Source of the DNA: a virus
IMG/VR virus record: IMGVR_UViG_3300032047_002681
Location: 1 to 21,201 of that record
Direction: 5' to 3' (one strand)
DNA: 21,201 nucleotides
Shown: piece by piece, positions 1,692 through 18,804 of the stretch
Position numbering within the stretch: position 1 is the stretch's first letter
Layout: each line of letters opens with the position of its first letter
Made by a program: the position numbers and the translations under genes
Notes under the pieces: model-generated
The model's input: only the letters and a program-made list of their open reading frames with translations
Told to the model about the DNA's origin: nothing
Databases searched by the model: none

Positions 1692-3260
1692 CTATTGCTG
1701 GACAATGCTATGGTTTGTCAATAAAAGTGTACCCGCAACTGACACTGCATTCTTTAGAGCGCAGCGAGTGACCTTTGCTGGGTCGATGACACCATCTTGT
1801 AACAAGTTTGTTTTTTCTCCCGAGGAAAAGTTGATGCCCTCAAAATCTTCACAACCTTCCACGGTGAGCCTGGCGACATCGGGAGACATGCCGGCATTAG
1901 TTGCCATGGTGTTGAATGGTGCCTGAAGTGCCTTTCGGAAGATAGACAGAGCTGTGCCCTGCTCCTCGGTGACAAAATTAGGAGCGATAGAGTTAGACAC
2001 ACGTAGAAGTGTCATGCCTCCACCGGGGACGACACCCTCTTGCTGTGCTGATCTGACTGCTTCCAAAGCATCTTCGATACGATGCTTCTTCTCAATCATC
2101 TCTACTTCAGAAGAAGCGCCAACACGGATGATAGCAACCCCAGAAGAGAGGCGAGTAACACGGTCTTGGAGCCGTCCCGCTTCATGGATATCATCTGTTC
2201 GCTGTATCTCCGTCTTAATTTTCTCAATGGTCTCATCAACCTTTTCATAGTCGCCTTCACCATCCACAACCGTAGTCATGTTCTTGGTGATCTCCACACT
2301 ATTAGCTTTGCCAAAGTCAGCCAGCGATACTTCAGTCAACTTGTGACCGAGTGATTGCTGAAAAAACTTTGCTCCAGTCGTAACTGCAAGGTCGCTCATG
2401 ATGGCCCGGCGCTCTTCCCCATAACGAGGAGCTTTCACCGCTGCGACCTTCATCGAGCCACGCATAGTATTCATAATTAGTGCGGCCAAAGCCTGACCTT
2501 CTATTTCTTCTGCTACAATCACAAAGGGTCGACCCTCACGGGCTGCAATCTCTAATGATGGCAGAATATCATTGACTTGATCGATTTTTGAGTCAGTAAT
2601 GAGGAACATTGGGGTCTCATAGCGGCAGGTTCCCCGTCTCTCGTCCGTTACGAAGGCTGTTGCGGCATACCCACTATCAAAACGAAAACCCTCTACAAGG
2701 TCCAAACTCGTCTCGTGAGAGCGTGCCTCTTCGATTGTGATGGAGCCGTTCTTTCCTACCTTATCTACCGCTGTGGCGACAAGTGTTCCGATAGTTTCGT
2801 CGTTGTTGGCTGAGATTGTAGCAATATGCTTTACATCTTCAGCTGAAGAGATAGGTTTTGCAATCTCTTCAATGATGCCAACTGCTTGTTCGAGGCACTG
2901 CTCTAGACCTCGCTTGATTTCAATGGGAGATGTCCCTGAAGCAATGTGTTTGTTTGCTTGGTTTAGGATCTCTCGTGCAAGGACGGTGGATGTTGTAGTT
3001 CCATCCCCTGCTTCTGCGTTGGTCATTGATGATACTTGCTTTACTACTTCTGCTCCCGCATTCATATGTGGATCTTCAAAGTTGACGTGCTGTGCTACGG
3101 TCACTCCGTCCTTTGTGACAAAGGGTCGTCTATCCTTTTGGTGGATAAGAACATTTTGTCCTTTGGGTCCGAGTGTTGTTGCTACGTAGTCCGCTAGAGT
3201 GTTTACGCCGTCGAGAACCTTGTTGCGGAGTTCAGGTCCATGGCTGAGTTGTGTGGTCAT
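1692..3260 (-). CDS. groEL: GroEL-type chaperonin (Hsp60)
   Basis: A 522-residue group I chaperonin that would form ATP-driven folding rings. All three domains are present: the equatorial domain with TLGPKG (29-34), the ATP-site Asp51 in the KDGV loop and GDGTTT (85-90); the apical domain (about 190-375, 'SLEIAAREGRPFVIVAEEIEGQAL'); and a C-terminal equatorial part with 'IEDAL' (catalytic Asp397) and PGGGM (412-416). It aligns over almost the whole length of bacterial GroEL (about 548) but stops without the GGM-rich tail that lines the cavity floor. Fixed start: ATG at 3260 with GAGG just upstream. It has its own consensus-like promoter and is separated from the GroES-like gene by 15 kb, unlike the bacterial groES-groEL pair. 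Numerous third-position differences from bacterial GroEL-style protein sequence suggest long phage residence, but I cannot quantify this. Confidence 0.97.
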   Translation of the reverse strand: MTTQLSHGPELRNKVLDGVNTLADYVATTLGPKGQNVLIHQKDRRPFVTKDGVTVAQHVNFEDPHMNAGAEVVKQVSSMTNAEAGDGTTTSTVLAREILNQANKHIASGTSPIEIKRGLEQCLEQAVGIIEEIAKPISSAEDVKHIATISANNDETIGTLVATAVDKVGKNGSITIEEARSHETSLDLVEGFRFDSGYAATAFVTDERRGTCRYETPMFLITDSKIDQVNDILPSLEIAAREGRPFVIVAEEIEGQALAALIMNTMRGSMKVAAVKAPRYGEERRAIMSDLAVTTGAKFFQQSLGHKLTEVSLADFGKANSVEITKNMTTVVDGEGDYEKVDETIEKIKTEIQRTDDIHEAGRLQDRVTRLSSGVAIIRVGASSEVEMIEKKHRIEDALEAVRSAQQEGVVPGGGMTLLRVSNSIAPNFVTEEQGTALSIFRKALQAPFNTMATNAGMSPDVARLTVEGCEDFEGINFSSGEKTNLLQDGVIDPAKVTRCALKNAVSVAGTLLLTNHSIVQQ

Positions 3261-7326: not shown

Positions 7327-7355
7327 ATTATATAATAATACAACTATAAATAGTA
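7327..7355 (-). promoter_or_regulatory. Probable promoter with palindromic element for the acidic-protein gene
   Basis: On the minus strand a perfect TATAAT (7332-7327) lies 30 bases before the ATG at 7297. No TTGACA-like -35 is present; instead the palindromic ACTATTTATAGT element (7354-7343) covers the -25 to -35 zone. A -10 with an unrelated upstream box is the plan of activator-dependent phage promoters such as T4 middle promoters, so a phage regulator binding here is a reasonable guess. Confidence 0.5.
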
Positions 7356-9672: not shown

Positions 9673-12600
9673 TTATGCTAATAGTCTGAACATCTTTCTC
9701 ATACTGAATGTGGAAAAACCCCACTGTTGATTATAATTTAGTCTGGCCATATATGGCCGGTTGATTTGGACTATATCTTTACTTGGGTCTACACCCCAAC
9801 ATCTGATAGTCGTTGTCTCATTGTTATCGTCAATAACCTTTACTACATAAAAGTTTTTTCCGTTCTTTGATTTCTTTAGTTTGCATTCCCGAGGAATAAA
9901 CCAAGTCACACCTAACTCAGGGTCGAACTCTGAAATAGGCGGAACGTAAAGTTCATCTAGCTTTTGTCTGACTCTTGGCGTTACCACGGCACTGATTGGG
10001 AAGACTCCAGTTAGGTTGACCAGGTATTCTAGCTTCTCCTCCTCAGAGAAGTCACCCTCTGGCTCATATCGCTCTATGTTTTCAATCAGGTTCTTCTCTT
10101 TTCGGGGACGGTCTTCTGCAACGGCTGAATAGAAATGCTTCATGCCTGAAAACCTGTCATCCATAAGAGTGTTTAGTGCCTGAGATAAACACAGGGCTGA
10201 AATGGATTTCTTGTTCAACTTCGAGTAAGTGATCTTCTCATGGAACAAGAACTCTTCAATTGTATTGAACGGCCGGTTCTCAATGATTTGTTCAATAGCC
10301 TTGATACCCAAACCCTTGATAGATGACAGTGGTTGAATCAGAGTTTTGCCGTCGTCGCTGATTTCCCAGTCGACGCCTGATGTATTCACGTTGAGTTGTT
10401 CTACATTGTAACCAAGTGATTTCGCTGTTGCGATTGCTCTTTCTTTTCTTGTCTCCGGCTCCTTGTCTAAGAAGGCCGCTAGCCATTCTGCTGGATAGTA
10501 ATTAAGTAAATAAGCACACTGATAGGATAGTACACAGTAGGATACAGCATGTGATTTGTTGAAACCATATCCTGAAAAGTATTCAAATGTCTCCCAAAGT
10601 TCTCTAGCCTCATAATCTTTCATTCCTTTCTCCAAGCATCCGCGCTTGAACTTGTCAAAGATTTTGTCTTTCTGAGCCTGGACTTCGCCAGTGCCCTTCT
10701 TAGTAAGTAGTTTTCTGAGCTTATTACCCTCATCCAGGGACAGGTCCTTGCCCAGTTTGTGAGCCAACATAGCAATCTGTTCCTGAAAAATAAGGAAGCC
10801 GTATGTTTCTTCCGTTACTTCTCGGACATACTTGTTGACGTACTCCACATCCTCTGGATTTGACTTTGCTCCAATGTACTTTCTATCTACTCCCGCACCT
10901 AGTGGGCCTGGTCGATAGATAGAAGTGATAGCCGACAAGTCAATGATGTTGTCCGGCTTCGCATTCTTACAGAACGATTGGGCCCCAGACTCTGTGAACT
11001 GGAAGATACCTGCCCACTTACCTTTGTGGAACACGTTCTCCCAGACTTCTCTGTCATCCAGGTCAATCTTCTCTGGATGTAGATTCTTGTCGTAGAATTC
11101 CTTGATGTCCGCAAACGTAGGGTTTTCTATTCCGTGATGTCGTTTTAGGATGCGCTCGATGGCGCCTTCCAACATACGAAGAGAAGCGAGACCCAGGATG
11201 TCAAACTTGATGAAACCCATGGGCTCAAGGTGTCTTACGTTCATACCCTCGGACCAAGGTGTTTGTCGAACTCCTCCTGAGTTGATAAGCGGCATCCACT
11301 GATCTAGGTTCTCACCCACAACAACACCACCAGCATGGCGTGAGGCTGAACGTGTCTGTCCATACAACTTCTCAATGTGGGTCTTGATGTGTGGATACTT
11401 CGCCAGGAATGCCTGCAAAGACTCCGAGAACTCCATCAACTCCTCAAACGTGGGAGCATACACGCCAGCCGTAATACCATGCTTTGCCTTGGCCCGAGGT
11501 GTTGCCTCATAAACCATCTTGCTTGTTACATTGTTTACTTCCGTGAACTCGATACCGTAGAACTTAGAGATGTCTTTGATGAGCGAGCGCAACTGAAGCG
11601 TGTTCCAGTTAGTGATAGGGACCACAGAGTTGTCACCCCACTGGTCGATAAGGACTTCCTTGAGCACCATTGGATCAGATACATCGTAGTCGATGTCTGG
11701 ATAACCCGAACCTCCCTTAGTCAAGAACCTTTCGAACTGAAGTCCGTATTTGATAGGGTCAACCTGAGTGATGTTCAGAACATACGCCACTAGTGATCCG
11801 GCAGCAGAGCCTCGCCCTGCTCCAACTAGTTGTTTCTCTACCGCGACGTCAGCGATAGATTTCATCGTCAAGAAATACTTGGAGAAACCTCTCTCTTCGA
11901 TAACGCTAACCTCACGCTTGAGGCGATCCACATACTCCTGGTTTGTATGGAGTTCAAGGGACCGAAGACCCTCAACGCAGAGGGCTGCCAAGGTTTGGCC
12001 AGCAGTTGAGCCCTCTGGGACAACGAAGTCCGGCAATCGAACTGTGTTGTCTGGTAAGAACGTCTCAATCCTCTCGTGCGCAATCTGATGCGTACGTTTG
12101 ATTGAGTTGAGTACCAATTCATCATCGTATTCTACCCCACACTCTTTCGAGTATTTCTTGTAAGATTCGAACATCTGGTCGCCGTTCTTTGGATACAGTT
12201 CGTAACCAACTTCTTCAACGGAAAGCGGAAGCTCGTCTGATAAGTAGTCTGGCTTGCCCTTACCTAGCCAACCTAATCGCTTGTAAAGTTCACGATCTTT
12301 CCAAACGTCTGCGTTGTAGTAGTGCGAGTCTGCAGTAGAGATAAGGTCAATGCCAAACTCTTGGTGCATCTGAATGATGTATTGATTGAGGTCGTGCTGC
12401 TCTGGAACATTGTTCCACTGCAACTCGCCATACCATCGGTCACCGAAGATAGATTGCATCTTCTGTGTTGTTTGTCGCATTGCTCCCAAGATAGCATCAG
12501 GTCCAGTGTCTCGGTTCTCCCAGTAGTTTCCAGCATAGACGCCACCAAGACAAGCTGATGCTGCGATAACACCTTCGTTGTGCTTCTTGAGCATAGCGTA

Positions 12601-13104: not shown

Positions 13105-13291
13105 TCACTAATTCTTTCATTTCTTCTACTGTTTCTAGCAATGTGGCTTTCACCACTTCTCTATCAATTTGGAACATCTCCATTATAAACCTTTCCTGGT
13201 CGTTTGTCAAGTCTTTATATAAGTCTGGCATGCCAGCATGCTCTTTAATAATGCTTGGCATCATGTCGTAAGTTTCTTCAATTTTCTTCAT
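13094..13291 (-). CDS. Hypothetical acidic helical protein (65 aa)
   Basis: A 65-residue, acidic, Met-rich helical protein ('NDQERFIMEMFQIDREVVKATLLETVEEMKELVNDI') with no membrane span or Cys motif. It overlaps the upstream nucleotidyltransferase-like gene by 14 bases and dnaE by 11, so it is translated as part of the replication run. A small partner of DnaE or of the replisome would fit the position, but no sequence feature shows it. Unknown family. Confidence 0.66.
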   Translation of the reverse strand: MKKIEETYDMMPSIIKEHAGMPDLYKDLTNDQERFIMEMFQIDREVVKATLLETVEEMKELVNDI

Positions 13292-14141
13292 CTTCTTGTA
13301 ATCCTCTCTTAAAGTGATATGGTTTTATGAATTTTTTGGACGGGTTATATAATTTACTCTCTGATCTAAAACACTCTTGAATTGACTCCCAGCTATCTAG
13401 AGTGTAAAACTCCGGAACCTCAAAAGTATCTTGTATATCTATTATATCTAATCCGAAGATTTTGTCAAGCGTAAAATTACGACTAGACCATCGTTCATGA
13501 GGTGGTAAGCTCTTGTCTCCTCGGGTGCAAGATCTCTTTATATGCCATTTGTATGTGTTCCAATCTTCTGGGAAGAAAGTAAATGCTAAGGGCTTTCCGT
13601 CTTTCACTGTCTGGCCGTTATGAGTGACATAAAACGATTCATTTCCTCTGATTCTAGTTCTGCATTTCACTAATGGATATGGACTATAGATACCATTTGG
13701 AAACGAAACAAAGTATTTTGAAGGGACAACCCATGAACTCATTTTGCTAGATATGACAAATGCAGTAATAGCTCCGTGTAACACGGACCATCCTAGAGAA
13801 TCCCTTCTATCTCTGTCTTTTTGAGAAACAGGAGTATAATATATTGGTATGTATTTTTCATAGTCAGCTTTCTTTTTGACAAAGTTCCAATTTTCAAACA
13901 AGATCGGATCTAGCACATAATCCCCTAATCTCTTCTTTAGTAATGGAGCCACGTCATCATTGCAAACGATCCAGATACTATCGCAGCCGGCCAAAGCAGC
14001 TTCTGTTACAGATCTTTCAACTGCAAGGTAACCCTCTCCTATTGGCATCAGGTAATCTGGCCAAGGAAACCCCAATGTGTCTTCTCGGCCGGATAGTGGT
14101 ATTATCCCAGCCATGTGCTTTCCTTTTGGCGGCTTATTCAT
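13278..14141 (-). CDS. Nucleotidyltransferase-like protein
   Basis: A 287-residue protein whose first 80 residues resemble the nucleotide-binding half of sugar-1-phosphate nucleotidyltransferases (GT-A-like Rossmann fold): 'MAGIIPLSGRE' (10-20), 'WPDYLMPIGEGYLAVERSVTEAALAGCDSIWIVCNDD' (27-63) and 'LGDYVLDP' (72-79). The classic GxGTRLxPxTxxxPK signature is only partly kept, so the substrate cannot be named and activity is uncertain. The remaining two thirds include 'PNGIYSPYPLVKCRTRI', 'LAFTFFPEDWNTYKWH' and a basic C-terminal tail. Start: the ATG at 14141 overlaps the upstream stop by eight bases (ATGAATAA); an ATG at 14114 with a better AGGA site and the natural family N-terminus is a strong alternative. 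It is paired with the unknown gene at 14134-14904. Confidence 0.83.
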   Translation of the reverse strand: MNKPPKGKHMAGIIPLSGREDTLGFPWPDYLMPIGEGYLAVERSVTEAALAGCDSIWIVCNDDVAPLLKKRLGDYVLDPILFENWNFVKKKADYEKYIPIYYTPVSQKDRDRRDSLGWSVLHGAITAFVISSKMSSWVVPSKYFVSFPNGIYSPYPLVKCRTRIRGNESFYVTHNGQTVKDGKPLAFTFFPEDWNTYKWHIKRSCTRGDKSLPPHERWSSRNFTLDKIFGLDIIDIQDTFEVPEFYTLDSWESIQECFRSESKLYNPSKKFIKPYHFKRGLQEDEEN

Positions 14142-14904
14142 TAATGATTTCCAACAGTGATGGCGCCAGAAACTTTACGTGTTCACTGTCCTTGTAAGTG
14201 TTTCTATCTTCTTCAAAAACTAATCTTTTTACATGTTTCACTGCAGGTCTTCTGTATTTTGTTGTGCCATTTTTGTTCATTCCTGCAACGGTACCGTTTA
14301 CCCCTATAGATCGAAGGTACCTCTCCACAACAAACTTGATTGTACTGTCTGAGTATTCAAAATTTTGCAGCTGGTCCAGGGTGAGGTGTGAATCTGTAAC
14401 GCAATCTGTTATAAAGCTAGCTCCGTCTACTCTGTTTGATGTATAAAAATGTATGCTCGAAACAAATCTATCGTCCTGATTCATCGATGGTATGTTTTTG
14501 ACAGCTCTTCCTAAATTTTTCAACTCAAAATCATCTATTACATGATACATAGGTGCACTTGGGTGAGAGATTTCATTTTCATGTATTACTCCTGTTGGAT
14601 CAAAGATCTTGCACTGACCAAACTGGTAACTATAAGTCTGATTTTCAGCAAACAGTTTGAGGACGTCTCCAGTTATCCTAATATTTTCTATATTTTCAAA
14701 CTGAATGACTTTGCCTATCAAAGATAAGGACAATAGTAGTCTGGATATTACCTTTGGTTCTCTAGAATCTCCCATTATCGAAAGTGGGAATTGCCTGTAG
14801 AACAAGTGAGGCCTCTTACGATTATATACGATAAATGAATCAGTCTTAATTGCATAGAACAAAGACTCGACCGTGTTACCTATCACTACCTTTTCTAGTA
14901 GCAT
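14134..14904 (-). CDS. Hypothetical protein, possible Rossmann-type N-terminus
   Basis: A 256-residue soluble protein I do not recognise. It opens with a beta-alpha-beta stretch ('EKVVIGNTVESLFYAIKTDSFIVYN', 4-28) like the start of a dinucleotide-binding fold, though with GNTVES rather than GxGxxG. Further blocks are 'HPSAPMYHVIDDFELKNLGRA' (142-163), 'DDRFVSSIHFYTSNRVDGA' (near 173-191) and a C-terminal 'NKNGTTKYRRPAVKHVKRLVFEEDRNTY'. The start at 14904 overlaps the end of the lipoprotein gene by 10 bases; a 33-residue extension to 15003 lies wholly inside that gene. Its stop overlaps the nucleotidyltransferase-like start, so the two are expected to be made together and may share a pathway. 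Confidence 0.76.
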   Translation of the reverse strand: MLLEKVVIGNTVESLFYAIKTDSFIVYNRKRPHLFYRQFPLSIMGDSREPKVISRLLLSLSLIGKVIQFENIENIRITGDVLKLFAENQTYSYQFGQCKIFDPTGVIHENEISHPSAPMYHVIDDFELKNLGRAVKNIPSMNQDDRFVSSIHFYTSNRVDGASFITDCVTDSHLTLDQLQNFEYSDSTIKFVVERYLRSIGVNGTVAGMNKNGTTKYRRPAVKHVKRLVFEEDRNTYKDSEHVKFLAPSLLEIINE

Positions 14905-16976
14905 ATCCCTATCTCGAAGTCGTATCGTGAACCTAAGTTTGCTCTTTGGTAACCGTTTCTGCCGAGAATGGTACGCTGGGCTGATTGGTCTGATGGCAAA
15001 CAAATCTCATCAAGTATCGACATGAGATCATTGTACATCTGTTCGGAACGCGAAGTTAGAACAAATACGCTGCCGCCGGTTGGATCAATATACCTTCTCC
15101 ACTGAGACCTGTAATAAGTCTGCGTAAAAACATAAAGTTTCACATCTGGCGATGCAGTGATTGCAGTAATCAAATCACTAGGTGCCAGTGTTGGACTCAG
15201 ATACGACTGGTCATCCTCATCCGAGAAAACAATAATTATTCTGTCTGCATCTTGCCTCCAGTCAACCTTGAACTGCTGTAGAGGGGGGATGGAATCTATG
15301 TTTGTCGAGAGTCGGTTCACCCAGCGTGCTGATGATACATCATATGGTCTGTTGGTTGATAAGTTATCGATTGAGAGATAGATAGCATCACGCAACATCT
15401 CATTACTAGACCCTGCGGCAAAAGATCCTGCATTTGAGAATGCAGTCATAAAGTTCTGAAAACTCGTGATGTTAGTTTCCATTCTCAAATACTCTGCCGT
15501 GTCTATGTCATCCTGACCTGACGCTGGTAGTATTCGCGGACCTGTGATGAGTCCCCATTTCAGTTTATCCTCTGCGGCGAACTGTGTAGCGAACCTGTTC
15601 ATTGCCATCCTAACTGCACTTATGCTATTAGACATTGATCCAGACCAGTCTAGAATAAAAAGAATATCCGTGTCGGGTATCTCTTCTCCAAAGTCCGTAG
15701 TTCCGTCACAGTCATTGTCTGCTCCATCACAGATCTCTCTGCTTGGAACTACCTCTCCAGCACAAAAGTCAAGCAACAAGTCTCCGCTTGATACCTCACC
15801 ATACCACTGACCTTCTTTACAAATCATCTCACCTGATTGACACACTCCCGTACTTGAGGTGCCTTCTGGTCCAGAATAGCAAGGTTTTGTCAAGTCTTCA
15901 TCAATCAATCCATCACAATCTTCATCGAAGTTGTTGCAAACTTCCGGGTTTACTGCCACCCCCAGCAGTTCATCGCAGGTCTCTGGAGAGTCAGCAGGGA
16001 CAATCTCTGGTGGCAACCAGGCGCAAATAGCGAGACAGTCTGTCATCTTCGTCAGAGAACAGTCTTCATTGTCGCATTCACAAGTCTTGAACCCCATACC
16101 ACAAGAAAGTGGCGGTTCCATACAGGGTATGAGAGCGCCTATCATTTCAGGTGGACAATCACAAGTAAGTGCTTCATCAACGAGGGCATCGCAATCATTG
16201 TCAAACCCGTCGCAAGACTCATCCATCGGTTGTCGTGCGGTGCATCCGATCCATCTACCATCCACACACGCTTCAATGCCCCGCTCGCACTCAGTAACAC
16301 ATTCTTGAACCAAAGACTCGTCGATAGATCCGTCGCAGTCATTATCTAAACCGTCGCAAGTATCTTGCTGAAGCGGCCCACACTCTCCGCACTCATTCAA
16401 TTGGTGTTCGTCTGTTTCATCATCGCAGTCATTGTCAATTCCGTCGCAAATCTCATCTGAAGGGATACAAGTCACGCATTCTCCATAGTAAAGTCGCCCC
16501 TTATCACACCTTACCTCTTGTCTTCCCGGTATACCATTGGCATCACAATCATAATACATTGTAAAATCTTCGTTGATTCCTGGCGGACAGTCAAAGGCGT
16601 GAGTACATGGGCTCTCATAGATGATTTCTGCTGGTGGACAAGTGTCATCTAAATTTCTATCGCAGGGAACATAATCCTCCCCACAGATATCCAAAAGCGC
16701 TTGCTTTGCCTGAATTTCCGTACCTGTCGGGGGGCAATACCAGGTTTGCTGTTGGCAACATCTTGGATGACATTCACAATAGTTGTCATCAGTATTTCTC
16801 ACACCTTCACAAGGGTCAACGTAAGCGTCGACAGTGATGTCTGGGATTTCTATGATTTGTATATCTTGAGACATAATGTCTGCACTTATGCCTACTTGTA
16901 GGTCATTTGTCTCACTCTGTTGTGGAACTGTGTCTGCGCAGGATGCTAAGACTAACAGTAAAGGTAGGTATCTCAT
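14895..16976 (-). CDS. Lipoprotein with MopE-type Cys/Asp repeats and a VWA domain
   Basis: A 693-residue exported protein. Residues 1-13 form a short lipoprotein signal with lipobox L-A-S-C (Cys13 would be lipidated). A Cys-rich region follows with five 'CDGxDNDCDGxxDE' repeats (about 176-190, 206-220, 254-268, 346-360 and 415-427), the MopE-like, probably calcium-binding, motif known from surface proteins of Myxococcota and other environmental bacteria. Then comes a von Willebrand A domain (about 435-660) with a MIDAS DWSGS (Asp443, Ser445, Ser447) and 'VFSDEDDQ' (583-590), an adhesion or metal-dependent binding module. It should sit on the cell envelope of the host, or be displayed by the particle if the lipid is not added. 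The SLT gene lies five bases upstream. GAGGA before the ATG supports the start. This is unusual cargo for a phage and a likely host acquisition. Confidence 0.93.
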   Translation of the reverse strand: MRYLPLLLVLASCADTVPQQSETNDLQVGISADIMSQDIQIIEIPDITVDAYVDPCEGVRNTDDNYCECHPRCCQQQTWYCPPTGTEIQAKQALLDICGEDYVPCDRNLDDTCPPAEIIYESPCTHAFDCPPGINEDFTMYYDCDANGIPGRQEVRCDKGRLYYGECVTCIPSDEICDGIDNDCDDETDEHQLNECGECGPLQQDTCDGLDNDCDGSIDESLVQECVTECERGIEACVDGRWIGCTARQPMDESCDGFDNDCDALVDEALTCDCPPEMIGALIPCMEPPLSCGMGFKTCECDNEDCSLTKMTDCLAICAWLPPEIVPADSPETCDELLGVAVNPEVCNNFDEDCDGLIDEDLTKPCYSGPEGTSSTGVCQSGEMICKEGQWYGEVSSGDLLLDFCAGEVVPSREICDGADNDCDGTTDFGEEIPDTDILFILDWSGSMSNSISAVRMAMNRFATQFAAEDKLKWGLITGPRILPASGQDDIDTAEYLRMETNITSFQNFMTAFSNAGSFAAGSSNEMLRDAIYLSIDNLSTNRPYDVSSARWVNRLSTNIDSIPPLQQFKVDWRQDADRIIIVFSDEDDQSYLSPTLAPSDLITAITASPDVKLYVFTQTYYRSQWRRYIDPTGGSVFVLTSRSEQMYNDLMSILDEICLPSDQSAQRTILGRNGYQRANLGSRYDFEIGICY
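15696..16451 (-). repeat. Five MopE-type repeat units inside the lipoprotein gene
   Basis: Five dispersed copies of a coding unit for C-(D/N)-x2-D-x-D-C-D-x3-D, recognisable on the plus strand by recurring tcgcaatcattgtc-like words (near 15709, 15916, 16191, 16339 and 16429). Spacing is uneven (30 to 92 residues), so the repeats are diverged domains rather than a fresh tandem array. Confidence 0.85.
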
Positions 16977-16981
16977 TGTGT

Positions 16982-17461
16982 CTATTCCTCGTATGCTCTC
17001 TTTATTCTATTTCTGATCTTCTTTACTAATTTGACGTAGTAAAGGTTCTTGTAAAAAACCTCTCTCTCACATATTGTTCCCGCATTATAAAAACACAAAC
17101 CTTGATCTAGATTACCTTTTGCATAAATATTGATTGTCCAGTTCAAGATTTGAGTACCGACGCGAATTGCGGTTGTGGGCTTTTTCAGTTGTTCGCAGGT
17201 GTATTTCTTACCAGCAGTAGATGGTCCGCCGGTCCATTTTGGTATGACTTGCATCAAGCCACAAGCATCAGCATGTGAAACGACGATCGGATAGTATGAA
17301 CTCTCCACATACATCAAGCCGGCCACTAACTCTGGTTCTAGATTATACTTATTTGCATTCTCAATGATGTCTTTTTCGTACCTGCAAATGTTTCTTTGTT
17401 GGACAGGATTTAGTTGTAAAGCTAAACCAGCAGCGAGACACAGAGTCATTATGGATTCCAT
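16982..17461 (-). CDS. Lytic transglycosylase (SLT family)
   Basis: A 159-residue soluble-lytic-transglycosylase-fold enzyme that cleaves the glycan strand of peptidoglycan. The N-terminus is a short hydrophobic export signal ('MTLCLAAGLALQL', 5-17). The catalytic Glu53 lies in 'MYVESSYYP', followed by 'GLMQVIP' (68-74) and 'FYNAG' (124-128), all standard for the family. It also has an extra Cys set (26, 67, 89, 123, 131) that could form disulfides outside the cytoplasm. Start at 17461 with GGAG six bases upstream and a TAATG overlap with thyX. Because it carries its own signal it may act as an endolysin released through the Sec route or as an entry/remodelling enzyme. Its close link to the envelope lipoprotein gene suggests a shared envelope task. 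Confidence 0.93.
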   Translation of the reverse strand: MESIMTLCLAAGLALQLNPVQQRNICRYEKDIIENANKYNLEPELVAGLMYVESSYYPIVVSHADACGLMQVIPKWTGGPSTAGKKYTCEQLKKPTTAIRVGTQILNWTINIYAKGNLDQGLCFYNAGTICEREVFYKNLYYVKLVKKIRNRIKRAYEE

Positions 17462-18165
17462 TATTTCTCCATTTTACTTTTGATGAAAGATTGTACCGAG
17501 TGGGGGAACAATTCTTCTGCAATCTCAAGGCAAGCTTCTGCCACCTGTTGAATCTCCCACTGCGCACCTGCGTGAGAACGAAGTGCAACAAACTTCAACA
17601 GATTGTGAAGATTTACCGTTCCGTAATACTGAGTGTACAAGTTTTGAGGCAGAACACCTCTTGCTTGCTCTCTGCAGACGCCTGATTCGAGCATCTTTTC
17701 AAAGAGTTTTATGCACTCTTGATGGTGTGTCTTCACTAAAGTCGAAGCGCTGGCGGAGACAGGAAACCCTGCTCTGTTATATTCAACAATTGGATTTATC
17801 AAATCATCAGTACTAGCCTGTCTGTTGCTCTTGTGTTGTTGTCTGAAGTCTTTAGGCTCATAAAAGTTAATGTCTACGGATGTATATCTCCTAGATATCT
17901 CATTATAGGCCCAAGTACGATGTCTATGGTGTTGACTACGTATGAAGAGAGGCACTGTAAACCTAAACGTGATAGCACAATGCTCAAAAGGAGAGCTGTG
18001 GTTATGGTCCATAAGGTAGTTGATAAGTTTAATATCCTTTTCATCTACTTCTTCTTTTTCTGAACCAAAGGAGACCCGCGCTGCGTTAACAACCGACAAA
18101 TCTGAACCCATATGTGAAATGTACTCAACCGCACCTAATCCATCGTCAAAGAGTTCAACTCTCAT
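17461..18165 (-). CDS. thyX: Flavin-dependent thymidylate synthase
   Basis: A 234-residue ThyX, which makes dTMP from dUMP using methylene-tetrahydrofolate, FAD and NADPH. The signature RHRx7S is exact: Arg81-His82-Arg83 then Ser91 in 'RHRTWAYNEISRRY'. Also typical are 'NHSSPFEHCAITF' (55-67), 'REQARGVLPQNLYTQYYGTVNLHNLLKFVALR' (165-196) and 'AQWEIQQVA' (201-209). Length is normal. The ATG at 18165 has an ideal AGGAGG site five bases upstream and overlaps the GroES-like gene by 11 bases; the extension to 18192 would remove that site. It works downstream of dUTPase, and unlike ThyA it regenerates tetrahydrofolate, so no phage dihydrofolate reductase is needed. Confidence 0.97.
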   Translation of the reverse strand: MRVELFDDGLGAVEYISHMGSDLSVVNAARVSFGSEKEEVDEKDIKLINYLMDHNHSSPFEHCAITFRFTVPLFIRSQHHRHRTWAYNEISRRYTSVDINFYEPKDFRQQHKSNRQASTDDLINPIVEYNRAGFPVSASASTLVKTHHQECIKLFEKMLESGVCREQARGVLPQNLYTQYYGTVNLHNLLKFVALRSHAGAQWEIQQVAEACLEIAEELFPHSVQSFIKSKMEK

Positions 18166-18478
18166 CCGGCCTCCTGTATACTCCCACCACATAGTTCTCT
18201 AGGATCATGTGGTGAGTCTTATCTTTCAACTTCACTTCCTCGATCATGGTTCTGTCGACAATAATTTTCTTATTATCAATATTGCCAAGTCTAAGGTATT
18301 TGAACTGAGGGCTGCAATCAGAAGCGACGTCGATTACAGTTGCTTCAATATACCTATCTTCATCTGGCTTGAAGTCGTCTGGAAGCAGCACACCTGCTGT
18401 GGTTTCATTCTTTGCTACATGAGGTACCACCAGGAGATGTCGATTTACTGGCTTGAGACTGAATGGTACACTGCTCAT
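18155..18478 (-). CDS. GroES-like co-chaperonin
   Basis: A 107-residue protein with the GroES/gp31-type layout: 'LKPVNRHLLVVPHV' (8-21, like 'IRPLHDRVIV'), then a mobile-loop segment 'KNETTAGVLLPDDFK' (23-37) holding the hydrophobic tripeptide VLL in place of GroES IVL, then 'YIEATVIDV' (43-51), 'KKIIVDRTMIEEVKL' and a final 'HHMILENYVVGVYR' strand matching the GroES ending. Divergence from cellular GroES is large, like T4 gp31, so it is named GroES-like. It would cap GroEL, either the phage's own or the host's. Start at 18478: GGGGAG upstream and an ATGA overlap with the previous gene. First recognisable gene of the unit behind the promoter at 18776-18804. Confidence 0.85.
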   Translation of the reverse strand: MSSVPFSLKPVNRHLLVVPHVAKNETTAGVLLPDDFKPDEDRYIEATVIDVASDCSPQFKYLRLGNIDNKKIIVDRTMIEEVKLKDKTHHMILENYVVGVYRRPDES

Positions 18479-18744
18479 GCTAAGATTCTCCCCATAGAGC
18501 GCTGACACTTATTTACATAGTCAGTCAGAACTTCCATATCTGTCTCTGACTTGTAAAGACGATACGCTTTTACGGCCAGCCTCATCTCTTCCTTTGTTAG
18601 CCATCCATTTTCGTTGTAAGACTCTCGAAGGTCGGAACGCTGTTCCTTGAACGGTTCCATGGCGTCTTCGATGGCCACGAATGTTTTGATATAGTTTGAG
18701 AGGTGCTCCTCTTTGGTTAGCAATTTGTCGTTGTTAGAACTCAT
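18475..18744 (-). CDS. Hypothetical helical protein (89 aa)
   Basis: An 89-residue, charged, all-helical protein ('LTKEEHLSNYIKTFVAIEDAMEPFKEQRSDLRESY' and 'LTKEEMRLAVKAYRLYKSETDMEVLTDYVNKCQ'). It has no membrane span and one Cys. The two 'LTKEE' starts hint at an internal duplication of a helical unit. The ATG at 18744 has a perfect AAGGAG site and lies just behind a promoter, making it the first gene of the GroES-ThyX unit; the extension to 18804 would overlap the promoter. Small helical proteins in this position are common in phage replication clusters; function unknown. Confidence 0.75.
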   Translation of the reverse strand: MSSNNDKLLTKEEHLSNYIKTFVAIEDAMEPFKEQRSDLRESYNENGWLTKEEMRLAVKAYRLYKSETDMEVLTDYVNKCQRSMGRILA

Positions 18745-18775: not shown

Positions 18776-18804
18776 ATAATAATACATTTTATCAGTTTTG
18801 TCAA
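18776..18804 (-). promoter_or_regulatory. Sigma70-like promoter for the GroES-ThyX-DnaE unit
   Basis: On the minus strand TTGACA (18804-18799), a 17-base spacer, then TATTAT (18781-18776), followed about 30 bases later by the AAGGAG site and ATG at 18744. The intergenic stretch (18745-18809) holds nothing else. Same hexamers as the groEL promoter. Confidence 0.78.

Follow-up and report, generated by a model that had tools for sequence, protein, structure and literature searches.

The window, that is, the whole stretch of DNA analysed here, is a virus record taken whole from IMG/VR (21,201 bases) and clearly forms part of a larger phage genome. It carries a minus-strand gene for a 693-residue VWA/MopE-repeat lipoprotein (hereafter the VWA protein) within an operon transcribed in the order g25, GroES, ThyX, SLT-type transglycosylase (SLT), VWA, g20 and g19, followed by DnaE. 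The first-pass annotation had described a lipoprotein of surface type that a phage encodes within its replication block, and this description is supported; two details of its setting were revised. The transglycosylase is indeed the neighbour, but it lies upstream of the VWA gene in the direction of transcription. The overlap with a phage gene is likewise present, but it amounts to 10 nt at the ATG of g20 (position 14904) and not to a large nested overlap, and the same 10-nt overlap was observed in the relative G001. The plus strand of the VWA gene contains 27 stops. The coordinates of all features are collected in Table 1. Two further observations concern the other genes of the window. Both g19 and g20 (13278-14904) are found clade-wide and in many outgroups. 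The phage also encodes a GroEL (1692-3260) besides its divergent GroES, and the nearest GroEL from an isolate is just 44% identical.

Table 1 Features of the VWA operon and of the VWA protein.
Feature	Position	Strand	Evidence or remark
g19, downstream gene	13278..14141	minus	no family match
g20, downstream of and overlapping VWA	14134..14904	minus	no family match
VWA/MopE-repeat lipoprotein gene, 693 aa	14895..16976	minus	ORF list, Pfam, alignment of relatives
Signal peptide and lipobox, aa 1-13, predicted lipid-bearing Cys13	16938..16976	minus	lipobox common to all members
Disordered, weakly conserved linker, aa 14-55	16812..16937	minus	AlphaFold pLDDT 30-40
Cys-rich N-terminal domain, aa 56-170, among the best-conserved parts	16467..16811	minus	alignment
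MopE-type repeat 1, aa 178-190	16407..16445	minus	PF11617
MopE-type repeat 2, aa 207-220	16317..16358	minus	PF11617
MopE-type repeat 3, aa 255-268	16173..16214	minus	PF11617
MopE-type repeat 4, aa 347-360	15897..15938	minus	PF11617
MopE-type repeat 5, aa 416-428	15693..15731	minus	PF11617
VWA domain, aa 434-660	14997..15677	minus	AlphaFold and PDB comparison, Z 17.9
MIDAS loop 1, DWSGS, aa 443-447	15636..15650	minus	invariant, 25/25
Variable C-terminal tail, aa 661-693, conserved C692	14898..14996	minus	alignment
SLT-type transglycosylase, exported-type N-terminus, directly upstream of VWA	16982..17461	minus	PF01464, 8.5e-18
thyX	17461..18192	minus	family match
GroES-like cochaperonin	18155..18508	minus	PF00166, 3.8e-5
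g25, opening gene of the operon; true start codon ATG 18744	18475..18744	minus	listed TTG 18804 is the -35 box
sigma70-type promoter, TTGACA-N17-TATTAT	18776..18804	minus	exact 17-nt spacing, 21/21

The reading frame, the lipobox, the five Cys/Asp repeats and the MIDAS-bearing VWA domain claimed for this protein were all confirmed by the ORF list, Pfam, AlphaFold and the alignment of relatives. The MopE match (PF11617) passed its cut-off, with 48.4 bits against 27 (1.1e-12). The Pfam VWA scores stayed under theirs (15.1 and 14.0 bits vs 27 and 23.8); the modelled fold of the C-terminal domain is nevertheless a clear VWA fold. The AlphaFold model of this part had a pLDDT of 79-91 over residues 521-640, Foldseek matched it to integrin I-like domains, and comparison with the PDB returned VWA folds of integrins and of TFIIH (Z 17.9 and rmsd 2.7 over 190 residues, model range 422-661). 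The MIDAS residues are nearly invariant among the aligned members: D443-x-S445-x-S447 and D586 were found in 25/25 and the loop-2 residue S/T523 in 24/25. When the N-terminal part was modelled alone, the confidence was low (pLDDT 69, pTM 0.34) with no PDB match at E 0.001, and therefore we make no claim of a new fold. The protein is acidic in composition. Full-length members have 48 Cys, or 49 where the signal peptide holds one, and this constancy fits oxidative folding outside the cytoplasm.

The N-terminus reads MRYLPLLLVLAS immediately before Cys13 and shows a basic n-region, a hydrophobic core and the lipobox Cys expected of a lipoprotein signal. Outside the lipobox the signal varies among members (mean pairwise identity 0.30), with Cys13 kept, and the lipobox was also present in all divergent relatives whose N-terminus is complete. 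Asp occurs at position +3 after the lipobox Cys in nearly all aligned members. According to the sorting rule of E. coli, Asp at +2 is needed for retention in the inner membrane. The VWA protein lacks Asp at +2, which by E. coli rules suggests an outer-membrane location.

The VWA gene is a phage gene: all the relatives found lie on viral contigs and none was found in the bacterial and archaeal scans. Full or partial relatives were detected in 25, and then in 36, viral loci at 55-84% identity, whereas two GTDB pattern scans covering 84,980 species of bacteria and archaea gave no relative. A bacterial donor or distant bacterial relatives may exist outside the scanned patterns. A MopE-related protein on the Sandaracinus plasmid pSa001 shares the MopE repeats only, at 26.8% identity over the repeat region; no bacterial relative having been found beyond this, the Myxococcota-like bacteria named in the first-pass annotation are at most a possible host. 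The VWA protein had no match in a tblastn search of 50,697 INPHARED phage records, in PHROGs at E 0.01 or in NCBIfam, and our literature search recognised no published report describing this gene.

The viral contigs carrying relatives reach 144-281 kb. Among them, G001 (143.9 kb) encodes a T4-like sheath, major head protein, portal, baseplate wedge, terminase and late sigma factor. A bacterial origin of the window was accordingly rejected, as the whole record is viral and its relatives are T4-like; nor is any relative an ordinary tail protein. A lysogenic role had also been proposed, but no integration genes were noticed among the G001 ORFs, and the genome is composed like that of a virulent T4-like phage. 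The large terminase subunit is 46.5% identical to that of its nearest isolate, Flavobacterium phage immuto, and 43.8% to that of Microcystis phage Mel-JY01; both are too distant to assign a host, and this route was rejected. Shine-Dalgarno cores precede 63 of 106 genes, compared with about 17 in shuffles, and this usage argues against a Bacteroidota host.

Several other genes of the relatives deserve mention. G001 contains a complete tmRNA (L040:721-1028; Rfam RF00023, E 7.5e-48) with the tag ANDDVENFEDYALAA, which could point to the host; tmRNAs are known in phages (PMC8928761). The same genome encodes a lipoprotein with a trypsin-like peptidase domain (L040:10956-11720, minus; Trypsin_2, 2.6e-9). 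In G006 (281 kb) we observed a second, different VWA-like lipoprotein with DTSGSM and a Val/Glu/Pro-rich tether (L051:6320-7282, minus), an exported cytochrome c-like protein with CxxCH (L031:4709-5125), and two short proteins with pilin-like N-termini, mutually similar by eye (L031:3509-3874 and 12084-12473), one of them right after the VWA gene.

The history of the gene was examined with DnaE as the anchor. Among loci whose DnaE is at least 75% identical and whose upstream sequence is long enough, the VWA gene occupies the same spot in 24/24, some of these 24 being near-duplicate contigs; among loci with DnaE at 59-70% identity it was found in 0/23 by tblastn and a motif search for MopE or D.SGS. 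It follows from this distribution that one clade acquired the gene between SLT and g20 and then retained it. In the outgroup L135 the SLT gene directly abuts g20, presenting an empty site. Two other phage lineages (G005 and G006) carry the VWA gene in different neighbourhoods, and their VWA proteins are 65% and 61% identical to that of G001, whereas their GroEL proteins are only 50% and 36% identical; phages have thus acquired the gene at more than one position.

Within the clade, VWA alleles diverge down to 28-47% identity with DnaE at 76-94%. The divergent alleles keep the lipobox, four to six repeats, a MIDAS of DWSGS, DTSGS or DVSGS, and in most cases 49-57 Cys (36 in L107). The downstream gene g20 is at least as divergent as the VWA gene, and hence the divergence is not special to the latter. 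Exchange of alleles by recombination inside the VWA gene is indicated by L015 and L016, which are near-identical except for a segment from thyX to the 5' part of VWA, the exchange also removing SLT. A similar pattern was seen in L002, L004 and L007, but one of them, L004, could be a chimera of the assembly, and the claim therefore leans on L015 and L016. In close pairs the dN/dS was 0.12-0.24, which means purifying selection; positive selection was not found in the VWA gene, synonymous sites being saturated in most pairs. Divergence of the alleles together with exchange inside the gene would suit an interaction specificity under contest.

The gene order is kept across relatives with SLT optional, and this neighbourhood bears on a possible role in lysis. 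At the time of lysis the VWA protein could act at the outer membrane together with SLT and, in some phages, with small lipoproteins and an i-spanin of Rz-like type; it would then weaken the membrane or resemble an o-spanin of unusual size. Such a role is hinted at by the order ThyX-SLT-Rz-like-VWA in L012, L013 and L021, where the Rz-like protein just before VWA in L012 matched a spanin family (phrog_9841, E 0.0013), by the overlap of about 50 nt between SLT and VWA in L007, L014, L015 and L018, and by small lipoproteins adjoining the VWA gene in L006 and L028. However, several relatives have no SLT between ThyX and VWA, the gene was not found in the 54-87 kb contigs G004, G008, G011 and G013, and in outgroups SLT occurs without VWA; an obligate partnership of the two was rejected on these grounds. 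Moreover, G001 has a separate endolysin (phrog_2649, 1.8e-17), the length of 693 aa and the VWA head are unlike spanins, the Rz-like neighbour is confined to loci of the L012/L013/L021 type, and the operon has an early-type promoter as described below. We consider a role in lysis improbable.

A sigma70-type promoter of the VWA operon lies 1.8 kb upstream of the VWA gene. The exact 17-nt spacer was found in 21/21 lineage-1 loci as compared with 3% of shuffled upstreams. In G001, TTGACA with a spaced TANNNT occurred 18 times vs 3 (expected about 4), ahead of GroEL, DnaE and others. The coding strand carries 15 copies of a second motif, CTATTTAT, and the opposite strand one, where about 3 would be expected; nearly all stand just before genes, among them the sheath gene, a baseplate gene and the operons that lead to the capsid and terminase genes. 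G001 also encodes a gp55-like late sigma factor (phrog_234). The T4-type late promoter TATAAATA was tried and was not enriched on the coding strand; CTATTTAT(A) is approximately its reverse complement, which was the clue to this motif. We assign the two motifs to putative early and late classes from the genes that they precede and from T4 biology. In all lineage-1 loci tested, CTATTTAT was absent from the 3.6 kb upstream of VWA. Early expression of the VWA gene is predicted from these motifs for lineage 1, to which the promoter reading applies and not to the G005 and G006 lineages; internal promoters are possible. In the window itself, the putative late promoter CTATTTAT(A) is also seen at 7353 and 34 on the minus strand.

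A sigma70-type promoter with no late-type motif would mean early expression, and this favours an envelope protein of the infected cell over a lysis protein or a virion adhesin. The last of these, a VWA protein carried on the particle and binding the host at adsorption, had been among the original suggestions and has become less likely. VWA heads do bind ligands, and strong allele divergence is typical of receptor-binding proteins too; yet the lipobox is conserved throughout, the gene belongs to a replication operon at a distance from the tail genes, and the late-type motif found ahead of structural operons is missing from its operon. Carriage on the virion is thus quite unlikely.

Taken together, these findings are best read as follows, with a probability of about 0.4: the VWA protein would be an early lipoprotein of the infected cell whose metal-dependent VWA head covers or ties up a target on the surface, superinfection exclusion being the most likely purpose. 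The protein would be made early, exported by Sec and lipid-anchored at Cys13, with probable sorting to the outer membrane. From there a disordered tether of about 40 residues, followed by a disulphide-rich stalk with the MopE-type metal-binding repeats, would carry the VWA head, whose MIDAS could bind an acidic group of a ligand through a divalent metal in the manner of an integrin I domain. The head, being made early, might thereby occupy or mask a surface component that other phages need. Of the roles offered at the outset, an infection-time surface protein acting in superinfection exclusion thus remains the best reading and has gained an early-type promoter; the block of a receptor is proposed by analogy, as are ligand binding by the head and exclusion as the benefit. 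Known exclusion lipoproteins are small, and the size of the VWA protein counts against this role. A defence-system role was rejected because PADLOC gave no match for the gene.

The same anatomy (VWA fold, MIDAS, lipobox and Cys pattern) would also serve an adhesin by which the infected cell sticks to other cells or particles, changing aggregation, grazing or encounters with hosts. VWA/MopE designs are bacterial surface proteins, and the Sandaracinus plasmid protein shares the repeats. On the other hand, long-term cell adhesion would be of little gain to a virulent phage, and the two scans gave no bacterial relative showing an ancestral role. We regard adhesion as a less likely alternative, although it comes ahead of help in lysis and use on the virion. 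Least likely appears a captured host gene that continues a host task such as metal acquisition through the MopE repeats. These repeats and the acidic composition speak for it, as does the MopE protein of Methylococcus, a copper-binding protein that calcium makes more stable (PMC3423442). However, the copper site of MopE consists of two His and a kynurenine (PMC3423442), and H126 is the only invariant His of the VWA protein; furthermore, the scans yielded no bacterial homologue, and the gene is fixed and diversified in a phage clade. We consider this reading very doubtful.

Returning to the exclusion reading, we tentatively propose that the early integrin-like lipoprotein represents a new class of large, metal-dependent proteins for superinfection exclusion, or for conversion of the infected-cell surface, with diversified alleles across one clade of uncultured T4-like phages and further occurrences, at other positions, in two other lineages. 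To our knowledge, virulent phages are rarely credited with large multidomain proteins on the surface of a doomed cell. If true, a fixed, early and allele-diversified lipoprotein of this kind would extend what is known of superinfection exclusion in both size and mechanism, and would offer a testable way into the competition between uncultured phages. The locus also shows how a surface gene can enter a phage replication operon and stay there.

With respect to known systems, the VWA domain shares its fold (Z 16-18) and the MIDAS residues with integrin I-like and other VWA domains (PDB 5ffo and 1mf7; TFIIH p34), but the identity is only 12-19%, and likeness of fold shows no function. Bacterial MopE-repeat/VWA surface proteins such as that of Sandaracinus pSa001 have in common the Cys/Asp metal-binding repeats and the extracytoplasmic design, whereas only viral contigs showed the conserved N-terminal domain and the 48-Cys pattern. 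PilY1-type adhesins of the pilus tip also present an extracytoplasmic VWA domain with a MIDAS, and the gene next to VWA in G006 is pilin-like by eye, a likeness that Pfam did not confirm; unlike them, the VWA protein is predicted to be lipid-anchored, has no C-terminal propeller and ends 33 residues past the VWA domain. The closest functional precedent, by analogy, would be Llp of phage T5, an early-expressed exclusion lipoprotein (PMC9586334). Llp, and Cor-type proteins, resemble the VWA protein as phage-encoded lipoproteins of the outer membrane made early in infection (PMC9586334), properties predicted for the VWA protein. Llp is, however, a small plug jammer of FhuA on the periplasmic face, encoded beside the receptor-binding protein gene, whereas the VWA protein has 693 residues and a VWA head and is encoded in a replication operon between SLT/ThyX and g20.
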